From the IMG/VR virus record IMGVR_UViG_3300042311_000104, positions 1 to 29,542 of that record: a stretch of DNA of 29,542 nucleotides, one strand, 5' to 3'. The DNA is from a virus. The notes below the pieces were generated by a model. It saw nothing but the letters and a program-made list of their open reading frames with translations, was not told where the DNA came from and ran no database searches. The translations under genes were made by a program, and so were the position numbers. Shown piece by piece: positions 14,227-17,945 of the stretch; the first letter of the stretch is position 1, and every line of letters begins with the position of its first letter.

Positions 14227-14255
14227 ACTATACCTCATTTAACGTCAAAGGTCAA
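14227..14255 (-). promoter_or_regulatory. Early sigma-70-like promoter for the gp47-gp46 operon
   Basis: Minus strand TTGACC (14255-14250), 17-base spacer ending GG, TATAGT (14232-14227). It overlaps the 3' end of the gp55 reading frame. Confidence 0.7.
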
Positions 14256-14819
14256 GGTTTTTTTCTTCTTTTTTATCAAAATATTTTGGTCTGCGTTTCG
14301 GCATAGGATTTTTCGGTGGTTGATTCTCGAGAGAACTATCGTAGGCATCATCGATCTGTTTGCGTAGATAATTGATAAATTCGTTTGTATGCTAGAACCA
14401 TCGGCGTCCTCGCTAATGATGCTGTTGATATCTAGATTTTGAATGTATCGATACTTGGTTGCCATATACTTCTTTTCTTTCTGGATTCGACGCAGAAAGG
14501 CATAGTATGTAATCTGGGTAAAGTAGGCAAAGGGATTGGAAGATTTGGCAGGATCAAAGTTATCAAGATATGTAATACAATTCTCAATACCATCTAGCAC
14601 CATCTCTTCTCGATAGGTGTAGTTGATGAAGTTTGCTTTGTATGCAAGATGGTTTGCGATCTTAACGAAACATTCGCCAATATAATTGGGAACTCTAGGT
14701 TTCTGTTTCCCCTCTGCTTTGGCCGCGAGAACTTTTTCTCGATACTCCACCATCGCTGCAAGGAATTCTTTATTGTTTACGTAATGTACGTTAGTTCTTA
14801 CTTTAGCAGTTTTTGCCAT
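14235..14819 (-). CDS. 55: Late-promoter sigma factor (gp55), apparently frameshifted near its 3' end
   Basis: 194 residues as read (T4 gp55 is 185). gp55 binds core RNA polymerase and recognises TATAAATA. Typical features are VPNYIGECFVKIANHLAYKA, YREEMVLDGIENCI and the sigma region-2-like NPFAYFTQITYYAFLRRIQK. After DADGSS (about codon 142) the frame turns into an unlikely Ile/Arg/Lys-rich tail. From about 14388 the next frame instead encodes TNEFINYLRKQIDDAYD, continuing to KEEKNLDL and a stop at 14245, which fits the family far better. One base seems to be missing around 14381-14395. It could be a sequencing error, a real mutation or recoding. Promoter at 14845-14873. Confidence 0.88.
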   Translation of the reverse strand: MAKTAKVRTNVHYVNNKEFLAAMVEYREKVLAAKAEGKQKPRVPNYIGECFVKIANHLAYKANFINYTYREEMVLDGIENCITYLDNFDPAKSSNPFAYFTQITYYAFLRRIQKEKKYMATKYRYIQNLDINSIISEDADGSSIQTNLSIIYANRSMMPTIVLSRINHRKILCRNADQNILIKKKKKTLTFDVK

Positions 14820-14844: not shown

Positions 14845-14873
14845 TTTATACCGCAAATAGACGTCAAAGTAAA
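14845..14873 (-). promoter_or_regulatory. Early sigma-70-like promoter for gp55
   Basis: Minus strand TTTACT (14873-14868), 17-base spacer ending GG, TATAAA (14850-14845); 25 bases before the gp55 ATG, with GAGG between. Confidence 0.72.
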
Positions 14874-14906
14874 TAGTTTTTTTAATCTTTTTCTTCAAGA
14901 AAACTG

Positions 14907-14935
14907 TTGACTTGTTCACCTATTCAGGGTATAAA
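14907..14935 (+). promoter_or_regulatory. Rightward (antisense) sigma-70-like promoter
   Basis: Plus strand TTGACT (14907-14912), 17-base spacer ending GGG, TATAAA (14930-14935). It has the same design as the leftward promoters but faces the opposite way, back to back with the gp55 promoter. No plausible plus-strand gene follows; a transcript from about 14942 would be antisense to the gene at 14963-15352. Confidence 0.6.
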
Positions 14936-14962
14936 GACTATGTCGTCTATGAAATGAATCAT

Positions 14963-15352
14963 CTAATTAAGTAGATTGTTCTTCTTTAGGTAATCGGCGG
15001 TCGTCGCGACCCAATCTTCGATTTCCTCTTCCTCTTCTTCGGGAGGATTTCCTCTCGTCTTCAAATATGTTTTATACTGTCGTTCGACATCATCTTTCAG
15101 AGTGCCGACCAGCACAACATTTTCACTCAGGATAACAAATTCTGTCTCTTCACATACTGCCATCCATGGTTTGAAAAGAAATCCTTCAACAACACCATTA
15201 CCTGATTGGACCTGATATGGAACAATGGAGACAGGATGCCGTATCTCGATCTCAAAAGAATCGAATAGTTCCTGCTGAGATGCAATATTTGTAGCGCACA
15301 TAACCATGTCGCCATCTTTCAGTTTAAGTAGTCTGATATAATCTTCAGTCAT
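14963..15352 (-). CDS. Small protein, possibly Sm-like, downstream of uvsW
   Basis: 129 residues. The N-terminus DYIRLLKLKDGDMVMCATN resembles Sm/LSm-type strands; the central part (HPVSIVPYQV... and ETEFVILSENVVLVGTL) is beta-rich. A Glu run (EEEEEEIEDW) precedes a short C-terminal helix. It is reminiscent of uncharacterised proteins next to uvsW in marine T4-like phages. The start at 15352 overlaps the uvsW stop in the context ATGACTGA. RNA binding would be the natural guess for an Sm fold, but this is inference from weak similarity. Confidence 0.72.
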   Translation of the reverse strand: MTEDYIRLLKLKDGDMVMCATNIASQQELFDSFEIEIRHPVSIVPYQVQSGNGVVEGFLFKPWMAVCEETEFVILSENVVLVGTLKDDVERQYKTYLKTRGNPPEEEEEEIEDWVATTADYLKKNNLLN

Positions 15353-16835
15353 CAATTGACAACCTTACTATCTTGTAGTTGAAACCTTCTTCATTATAAA
15401 TCTTCACACGCTCGACCATATGATTGAGGGTATAATTCTTTTTGGACTTCCAAGATAGGTCATCGCCAATATCAAAAAGATTACAACGTTCTTTCTGATT
15501 GCCCTTTCTTAATCCGCGACCAATAGATTGAAGATTTCTAATGCGGGATTTAGAAGGTGAAGCGAATACTACATTATGGAGGTTACGTATATTTATTCCC
15601 GTAGAAAAGGTTCCGTATGACGCAACAATAATTGCATCAGTTTCTTTCTCTGTAATAGATCGGATCTGTTCTCGTTGAGAAGTATCAGTTCCACCATAGA
15701 CAAAGAAAACCTTTCGCGAAGTTCCTGCCTTTTCTTTAATCATTTTATAAAGAACATCACCATGTTTCTCTACGAACTGAAACAAGACTAGCGTGTTGCC
15801 TTTTTGTGACACAGAGAGATTGCGGATGACCACATTTCGTTTGTGGTTTTTAACCAACCAGTCCATTTCTTCTTGGTATGTATGATTCTTAACTGCTTTT
15901 TTGGTTTCGTCGGTATAGTCCAGAAGCAAACATGTAATCTTTAACTCGGCGAGGTCTTTGTTATCCATCAGTTCTTTGGTAGTAATTACCCGATGAACCT
16001 TACCGAATAGACCCTCGAGAATCAACTTATGAGTCTTAGTTCCGTCGAGAGTACCAGTGGTTCCAATGCGGAACTTAGTCTTGGTGCATTTGTTAAAGAT
16101 TGATGTTAGTGACTTTGCCTTGAACAAGTGTGCTTCGTCGCCGTAGATAACATCAAATTCATCGAAGAACTTTTTTGGTAGTTTGTATATTGACTGCCAT
16201 GTCGAGATAACGATGTTTGCTTGATTTGACTTTTCAAATCCAGCGTAAATTTTAGAGCAGTTATTTGCAACATGCCATGTATCATCATTGTGAGAATAAT
16301 CAGCGAAGTCGCCATACATCTGTTCGACCAATGATGTTGTGGGAACAATGACCAACTGCTTACGATTAAACTTCTGGTGATACCTCAGGAGTAGATAGAT
16401 GATCAGGGATTTGCCTGATGCAGTCGGAGATAGTAGCAAAGTTCTGCCAATGCGAATCGCATATTTGACTGCATCGATTTGATATTCTCTCGCCTGAATC
16501 GGACTACCTTGTGAGGTAAGATTCAAACTCTCTGCGAATTCTTCTAGGTATTCAATATCAACTGGATCACCAATCGGATCCATTTTGACATCCATATCAT
16601 AGTCTGATCTTGCAGCAAACTCTCTTAGATATGGAAGCAGACCAACGTAAAGTTCCTTGGTCCACATGTTGAACATTCGTGCTTTACCATCCCACAGTTT
16701 CGCTTTATAGGTTGGCATGAATCTTGCTCCAGGAACGTCGAAAGTGAAGTAGTCATTCAACTCGGAAGCAATCGAAGGATCGCTTTCGATATTCAAATAG
16801 ACTTCATCTTTCTTGGTAACTGTTAAGTCAGGCAC
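15345..16835 (-). CDS. uvsW: RNA-DNA/recombination helicase (UvsW)
   Basis: 496 residues, as in T4 (503). An SF2 helicase: motif I SPTASGKS (about 136-143), DEAH box in YGDEAHLF (233-236), motif III-like GTTGTLDG, and motif VI QSIGRGLRKG near the C-terminus. The N-terminal 110 residues form the small substrate-binding domain typical of UvsW. It unwinds R-loops and branched DNA and shifts the phage from origin- to recombination-dependent replication. It starts with GTG directly overlapping the uvsY stop (TAGTG); no in-frame ATG is available. Confidence 0.95.
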   Translation of the reverse strand: MPDLTVTKKDEVYLNIESDPSIASELNDYFTFDVPGARFMPTYKAKLWDGKARMFNMWTKELYVGLLPYLREFAARSDYDMDVKMDPIGDPVDIEYLEEFAESLNLTSQGSPIQAREYQIDAVKYAIRIGRTLLLSPTASGKSLIIYLLLRYHQKFNRKQLVIVPTTSLVEQMYGDFADYSHNDDTWHVANNCSKIYAGFEKSNQANIVISTWQSIYKLPKKFFDEFDVIYGDEAHLFKAKSLTSIFNKCTKTKFRIGTTGTLDGTKTHKLILEGLFGKVHRVITTKELMDNKDLAELKITCLLLDYTDETKKAVKNHTYQEEMDWLVKNHKRNVVIRNLSVSQKGNTLVLFQFVEKHGDVLYKMIKEKAGTSRKVFFVYGGTDTSQREQIRSITEKETDAIIVASYGTFSTGINIRNLHNVVFASPSKSRIRNLQSIGRGLRKGNQKERCNLFDIGDDLSWKSKKNYTLNHMVERVKIYNEEGFNYKIVRLSIDD

Positions 16836-17275
16836 TACATCAATCCATTAGTAAACTTTGTCCATTCGATGGCATTTTTGATTTCCCAACCACGACCATT
16901 TAGTGAACGGATAATTTGCTCTAGTTGGTAGAGCATTGCTTTCATATATTCGACTTTATCAACGCAACGAATAATATCTTCGTCGCAATTAACAATATCT
17001 TCGACCTCATTCTTTAGAGGTTTTAATCCCTGAAACTGATTCCACCCAAGTTCTTCTAGTTCTTCGCGAGTCATCTCTCCGCGATAGTATTTAAACTTGG
17101 TGCGACGTAGGCGCAGGTAATCCCCCTCGCATTTGCGAAGTTGTAATTTGGTATTACTCAAAATGTTTAGATATTTTGCATGCAGTTCGGCGATTTGAAT
17201 CGAAGACTTACCAAGATCTAGTTCGTTGACCTTAGCATCTTTTGTCCACATGTCTTGAATTTCAGATAGTTTCAT
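16835..17275 (-). CDS. uvsY: Recombination mediator UvsY
   Basis: 146 residues (T4 UvsY 137). UvsY loads UvsX recombinase on gp32-coated single-stranded DNA. The sequence is mostly helical and charged, beginning MKLSEIQDMWTKDAKVNELD, which is very typical of the family, with the basic LRRTKFKYYRGEMTREELEE region in the middle. GAGG precedes the ATG and an early promoter lies at 17300-17328. It is coupled to uvsW through TAGTG. Confidence 0.92.
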   Translation of the reverse strand: MKLSEIQDMWTKDAKVNELDLGKSSIQIAELHAKYLNILSNTKLQLRKCEGDYLRLRRTKFKYYRGEMTREELEELGWNQFQGLKPLKNEVEDIVNCDEDIIRCVDKVEYMKAMLYQLEQIIRSLNGRGWEIKNAIEWTKFTNGLM

Positions 17276-17299: not shown

Positions 17300-17328
17300 A
17301 TCATACTATATTTTTTGACAGAAGTCAA
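17300..17328 (-). promoter_or_regulatory. Early sigma-70-like promoter for uvsY-uvsW
   Basis: Minus strand TTGACT (17328-17323), 17-base spacer, TATGAT (17305-17300). It marks the switch from the late block to early/middle genes. Confidence 0.7.
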
Positions 17329-17937: not shown

Positions 17938-17945
17938 TATTTATA
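17938..17945 (-). promoter_or_regulatory. Late promoter TATAAATA for tube-like gene
   Basis: Exact octamer on the minus strand, 19 bases before the ATG at 17919 and directly after the terminator of gp23. Confidence 0.75.

Follow-up and report, generated by a model that had tools for sequence, protein, structure and literature searches.

Antisense RNAs are a known kind of phage transcript, and the nearest described case to the one considered here is CfrI of the T4-like cyanophage S-PM2 (PMC2984593, PMC5931967). CfrI is a cis-antisense RNA of about 225 nt that covers the 3' end of a phage gene and links psbA with a homing endonuclease gene. The early promoters of S-PM2 and of phage Syn9 have boxes of the TTGACA-N17-TATAAT type and are used by the host RNA polymerase, and cyanophages appear to be without the alt, modA, motA and asiA machinery of T4 (PMC2984593). 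For T4 itself, PMC3016281 describes UvsW as made from a late promoter and as unwinding origin R-loops, and its reservation for the late phase lets these R-loops survive early. A predicted cis-antisense transcript over the 3' end of a phage gene, boxes of this early type and a proposed reservation of UvsW for the late phase are likewise features of the locus described here. It lies in a 29,542-nucleotide stretch of viral DNA (29.5 kb; the window), which has no close match among phage records and whose UvsW is nearest to that of the Methylophilales phage Melnitz, followed by those of cyanophages.

Organization of the locus

All recognised genes of the window are on the minus strand, in the order uvsY, uvsW, Sm-like, a gap of 143 bp, gp55, two small open reading frames and gp47. 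In T4, gp55 is presumably not adjacent to uvsW. The gap holds the gp55 promoter and, back to back with it on the plus strand, TTGACT-N17-TATAAA at 14907-14935, with a 17-base spacer ending in GGG. The first-pass annotation had placed these boxes at exactly these positions, and its description of a divergent promoter with no plus-strand gene downstream is borne out. The features of the locus are as follows:

14235-14819, minus: gp55, late sigma factor (phrog_234 late sigma factor, E=1.5e-59)
14845-14873, minus: gp55 promoter, TTTACT-N17-TATAAA, the divergent partner (sense promoter of at least 9/12 in 79/91 relatives)
14907-14912, plus: antisense -35 box, TTGACT (TTGAC[A/T] in relatives)
14930-14935, plus: antisense -10 box, TATAAA, spacer 17 (TATAAT, TACAAT or TAGAAT in relatives)
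14936-14947, plus: inverted repeat at the start site, GAC-TATGTC-GTC, spanning the predicted +1 (G14942)
14942-14962, plus: predicted antisense transcript start and lead-in
14963-15355, minus: Sm-like protein gene, 130 aa, predicted first antisense target (Pfam Sm_like, E=1.5e-4; phrog_471)
15345-16835, minus: uvsW helicase gene, next upstream gene in the possible reach of the antisense transcript (Pfam ResIII, UvsW_N, Helicase_C)
16835-17275, minus: uvsY, first in the same-strand uvsY-uvsW-Sm-like run (Pfam UvsY)
17300-17328, minus: sigma-70-like promoter ahead of uvsY, TTGACT-N17-TATGAT (sense competitor)
17938-17945, minus: T4-type late promoter, TATAAATA, ahead of the gene that precedes uvsY
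702, 4066, 5905, 9465, 14255, 14873 and 17328, minus: leftward promoters of similar design

The uvsY-uvsW-Sm-like run is thus downstream of both the TATAAATA late promoter (17945) and the sigma-70-like site (17328). The Pfam Sm_like match of the Sm-like gene falls under the curated cutoff. PHROGs and cyanophage records name this gene "methylamine utilization", apparently an annotation error that has been propagated. The antisense promoter had been said to have exactly the design of nine leftward promoters; it does resemble them in design, and about seven are counted, most of which deviate from the exact boxes. About 48 bp that take in the gp55 promoter and the A-rich sequence upstream of it (14845-14895) recur, with 82% identity, at the leftward promoter at 674-723.

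The antisense site matches the sigma-70 consensus at 10/12 positions with a spacing of 17, and is weaker than the copies in most relatives, having TATAAA and a short dyad. TTGACT-N17-TATAAA has a single exact match in the window on both strands, and four hits with at most one mismatch versus 0.32 expected from shuffles. Because a general promoter scan of the region gives no excess of sites (25 versus 23.8), the decisive evidence is conservation and not this single match. The site differs from a T4-type late promoter, which has TATAAATA at the -10 position and no -35 box: its -35 box is near perfect, its -10 region reads TATAAAGA, and TATAAATA is absent from the plus strand of the window. Established sigma-70 rules suggest early use of this promoter and a start at a purine 6 to 8 nt past the -10 box. 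The predicted +1 is G14942, 21 nt ahead of the Sm-like stop codon (14963), in agreement with the start near 14942 proposed earlier; TG is invariant there, with the putative starting G at 6 to 7 nt in most relatives.

Conservation of the antisense promoter

Relatives were fetched from IMG/VR using gp55, and named phages were added. The order uvsY-uvsW-Sm-like-gp55-gp47 is broadly kept among them, interrupted at some points by small genes. In the gap between Sm-like and gp55, the best antisense sigma-70 site reaches at least 10/12 in 87.5% of 72 loci versus 5.8% of shuffles. When 63 non-redundant loci were scanned in sliding intervals of 140 bp, antisense sites of this quality were found in 77% only just ahead of gp55, and in 0-12% in the 14 other intervals. 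An unbiased non-redundant set comprised 91 gp55 loci with Sm-like upstream (assigned by profile) across a gap of 45 nt or more; an antisense site of at least 10/12 is present in 88 of these (97%), and TG[TC] stands at the start in 89. Among the loci counted as negative, L014 has a 12/12 antisense site just beyond the scanned interval, and Melnitz (L083) keeps the -10 box and start element with a poor -35 box. The promoter is found in Syn9, P-SSM2, P-SSM4, S-SKS1, S-SSM7 and Mosig, and so occurs in phages of cyanobacteria and of SAR11 (Mosig), while it is degenerate in the OM43 phage Melnitz. It is usually stronger than the promoter of gp55 itself, and is kept in 12 loci that have no good visible gp55 promoter.

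Loss of the boxes in close relatives, named in the first-pass annotation as evidence that would count against a promoter, is not seen. In the closest relative (L003) both boxes are unchanged, with 0/27 changes from the -10 box to the Sm-like stop codon and 1/29 in the stretch from -35 to -10, located in the spacer, while 17% of third positions differ over the final 138 nt of the Sm-like gene. A chance match is ruled out by the conservation across relatives (88/91 loci, set against the other intervals and the shuffles). In our judgement marine T4-like phages almost certainly share a genuine antisense early promoter of sigma-70 type at this site, and it is very probably transcribed during infection. 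Syn9 has one further minus-strand site of at least 11/12, a 12/12 sigma-70 match that faces backwards inside gene 6 (58902, minus, in L090, Syn9 50001-100000).

The antisense promoter goes together with the gap between Sm-like and gp55. It is present in 0/8 loci where gp55 abuts the upstream gene, and the same scan finds no gp55 promoter in these either. At one locus (L068), where desaturase genes replace uvsW and Sm-like, the gp55 promoter is visible and the antisense site is absent; this one locus is what points to a dependence of the promoter on uvsW and Sm-like. The -35 boxes of the antisense and gp55 promoters are at most 60 bp apart in 59/75 loci and are interlocked in 14, and the two promoters thus form a divergent pair. 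At the loci concerned (L091, Syn9 100001-150000, with record positions 123718 and 123733; L085; L086), the boxes interlock in Syn9 and P-SSM4 and share one hexamer in P-SSM2 and others.

An inverted repeat at the start site

Directly 3' of the -10 box, relatives carry an inverted repeat that has the predicted +1 at its centre and contains an invariant TG, a feature that the first-pass annotation had missed. It takes the form AACTCTGYCAGGGTT in cyanophages, AACGGTGTCCGTT in SAR11 phages and GACTATGTCGTC in the window, where it is weakest, with 3 bp per arm. Pairing between the arms is 4.26, versus 3.15 +/- 0.13 in an arm-swap control, and deviations on the antisense strand are 48 G.T versus 1 A.C, counts that related sequences inflate. 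Both the pairing excess and the wobble bias are suggestive only, and the latter might reflect C-to-T change on the non-template strand or an AT preference of the discriminator. Because a conventional start puts the 5' arm upstream of +1, the RNA itself would not contain the hairpin, and a better fit for the repeat is an operator in the DNA or a hairpin formed by the non-template strand. The repeat is probably a control site, of one of these two kinds, for its promoter class. A simple operator is possible; arm sequence and spacing that vary between lineages with compensation are unusual for a single repressor.

Exact scans of IMG/VR with a pattern consisting of the -10 box and start element, the -35 box being left out, returned at least 163 marked sites beside gp55 and at least 44 elsewhere. 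Among the matches listed that had full flanks, a 5-6/6 match to TTGACA at 16-18 bp precedes 74/74 of those beside gp55 and 39/40 of those elsewhere. The marked sites away from gp55 are, among the matches listed, mostly ordinary sense promoters located 40-65 nt ahead of genes. These genes encode a GIY-YIG-like nuclease (phrog_447), a RusA-like resolvase (phrog_244), CpeT (phrog_488) and unknowns, and no autoregulated repressor gene was recognised among them. Syn9 has exactly one second marked site (52741, plus). The SAR11-phage form occurs, among the matches listed, beside gp55 only, except for two matches at contig ends, where gp55 would fall off the contig. At several of the other marked promoters (loci L121, L123, L170, L172, L115, L162 and L166) the -35 TTGAC is part of an intrinsic-terminator loop (e.g., GAGGGGGCTCTTGACCCCCTCTTTTTTT), so that the terminator overlaps the next early promoter.

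The predicted antisense transcript

By its geometry, the predicted transcript is antisense to the 3' part of the Sm-like gene and runs on towards uvsW, as had been proposed. The small hairpins assigned to its first bases fare less well. The ATCTA/TAGAT pair, previously put at 14969-14984, is at about 14961-14976 and spans the Sm-like stop codon, and in 67 relatives the predicted structure of the first 40-100 nt does not exceed that of shuffles (mean z of about -0.01 to -0.24). No match was found in Rfam, which speaks against a known structured RNA. A hidden antisense open reading frame is also rejected, as none is conserved and the median longest frame starting in the first 80 nt has 17 aa; the predicted transcript is in this respect like other phage cis-antisense RNAs, which encode no protein. 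No intrinsic terminator common to the relatives was found, which speaks against a defined small RNA ended by one. In the sub-lineage of L005 and L006, a terminator-like hairpin and T-run at about +37 would give a very short antisense RNA.

The discrete, hairpin-bearing small RNA of the first-pass annotation thus finds no counterpart in a conserved fold, reading frame or terminator. What is conserved is a predicted transcription start about 20 nt ahead of the Sm-like stop codon. This fits cis-antisense transcription or promoter interference, and not a defined trans-acting small RNA; the lack of a conserved fold or reading frame is as expected for a cis-antisense transcript that acts by complementarity or through transcription itself.

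Possible functions of the promoter

The anatomy, deep conservation and position of the promoter, with its start-site inverted repeat, lead us to favour, tentatively and at a little short of an even chance, a function in which early antisense transcription opposes uvsW and Sm-like expression until gp55 takes over. Early in infection, host RNA polymerase would start at about 14942 on the plus strand and proceed through the Sm-like 3' end towards uvsW, giving a cis-antisense transcript of variable length. This would oppose expression of, and read-through along, uvsY-uvsW-Sm-like while the partner promoter makes gp55. Once polymerase is redirected by gp55 to late promoters of the TATAAATA type, activity of the antisense promoter would cease and late sense transcription would then prevail. 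The early/late control element suggested in the first-pass annotation is accordingly a plausible reading. That the transcript is made and represses uvsW and Sm-like is what we infer. Early restraint of uvsW makes sense because T4 UvsW is late and unwinds origin R-loops (PMC3016281). The sigma-70-like promoter of uvsY (17328) may give uvsW some early expression, and a model of simply keeping it off is the weaker for it. A broader claim, possible but doubtful, is that marine T4-like phages have in common an early/late toggle of ancient origin, in which a gp55 arm is joined by an antisense arm restraining UvsW and Sm-like, and a phage regulator bound to the start-site repeat shuts down every promoter of the class when the switch comes.

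Other functions would use the same promoter differently. Antisense RNA might pair with the uvsW/Sm-like mRNA at its 3' end and shield it from host RNase E, as PMC10976474 cites work in which antisense transcription protects cyanophage mRNAs from this enzyme and reports antisense transcription in Kyanoviridae; CfrI of S-PM2, moreover, is co-expressed with its target (PMC2984593). We consider protection unlikely, since RNA from an early sigma-70 promoter and late sense mRNA would be present at different times, and the promoter also occurs in the SAR11 phage Mosig and, degenerate, in the OM43 phage Melnitz, whose hosts differ. The transcript could also be a by-product of promoter competition, in which overlapping polymerase footprints limit or time gp55. 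The close or interlocked -35 boxes (Syn9 and P-SSM4 included) and the joint absence of both promoters where Sm-like abuts gp55 speak for competition. It is nevertheless improbable, as the nearest sense site is more than 60 bp from the antisense -35 box, too far for competition, in 16/75 loci where the antisense promoter persists; of the two sites, moreover, the antisense one is generally the stronger, and it is kept in the 12 loci noted above that have no good visible gp55 promoter.

A short trans-acting RNA directed at other phage or host mRNAs would explain the family consensus retained over the first ~18 bases of the transcript (GTCAGGGTTCAAGGGA in cyanophages), and the terminator-like hairpin of L005 and L006 would delimit one. 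The same initial bases, however, are also found where ordinary sense promoters precede other genes, those for nuclease and CpeT among them, and so belong to the promoter class; with no conserved fold, common terminator or Rfam match, a trans-acting RNA is quite unlikely. The repeat might, finally, be a hairpin of the sense mRNA (Sm-like 3' untranslated region or weak terminator) whose likeness to a promoter is secondary, as it is located between the Sm-like stop codon and gp55, and folding of it is possible in some sense transcripts. This is disfavoured as highly improbable: the G.T bias on the antisense strand is opposite to what a sense RNA would show, unrelated sense promoters carry the element too, almost always preceded by a -35 box, and there is no U-tract.

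Comparison with known systems

A literature search, with the Syn9 transcriptome outside its coverage, returned no report of an antisense transcript at gp55/uvsW, and the novelty of an antisense promoter there is provisional. Present in 97% of diverse loci and often stronger than the gp55 promoter, it is a concrete candidate for the timing of cyanophage transcription and offers a single site for mapping and mutation. The start-site repeat, in turn, defines a small co-marked set of early promoters (nuclease, resolvase, CpeT and others) that is testable as a regulon. T4 uses a late promoter for uvsW, and the accessible text of PMC3016281 describes no early antisense promoter. Unlike CfrI, the site described here belongs to the gp55/Sm-like/uvsW boundary, and cyanobacterial and SAR11 phages alike keep its promoter. 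Unlike the ordinary early promoters of S-PM2 and Syn9, it faces against the run of genes, and its start-site repeat is shared with only one other promoter of Syn9.
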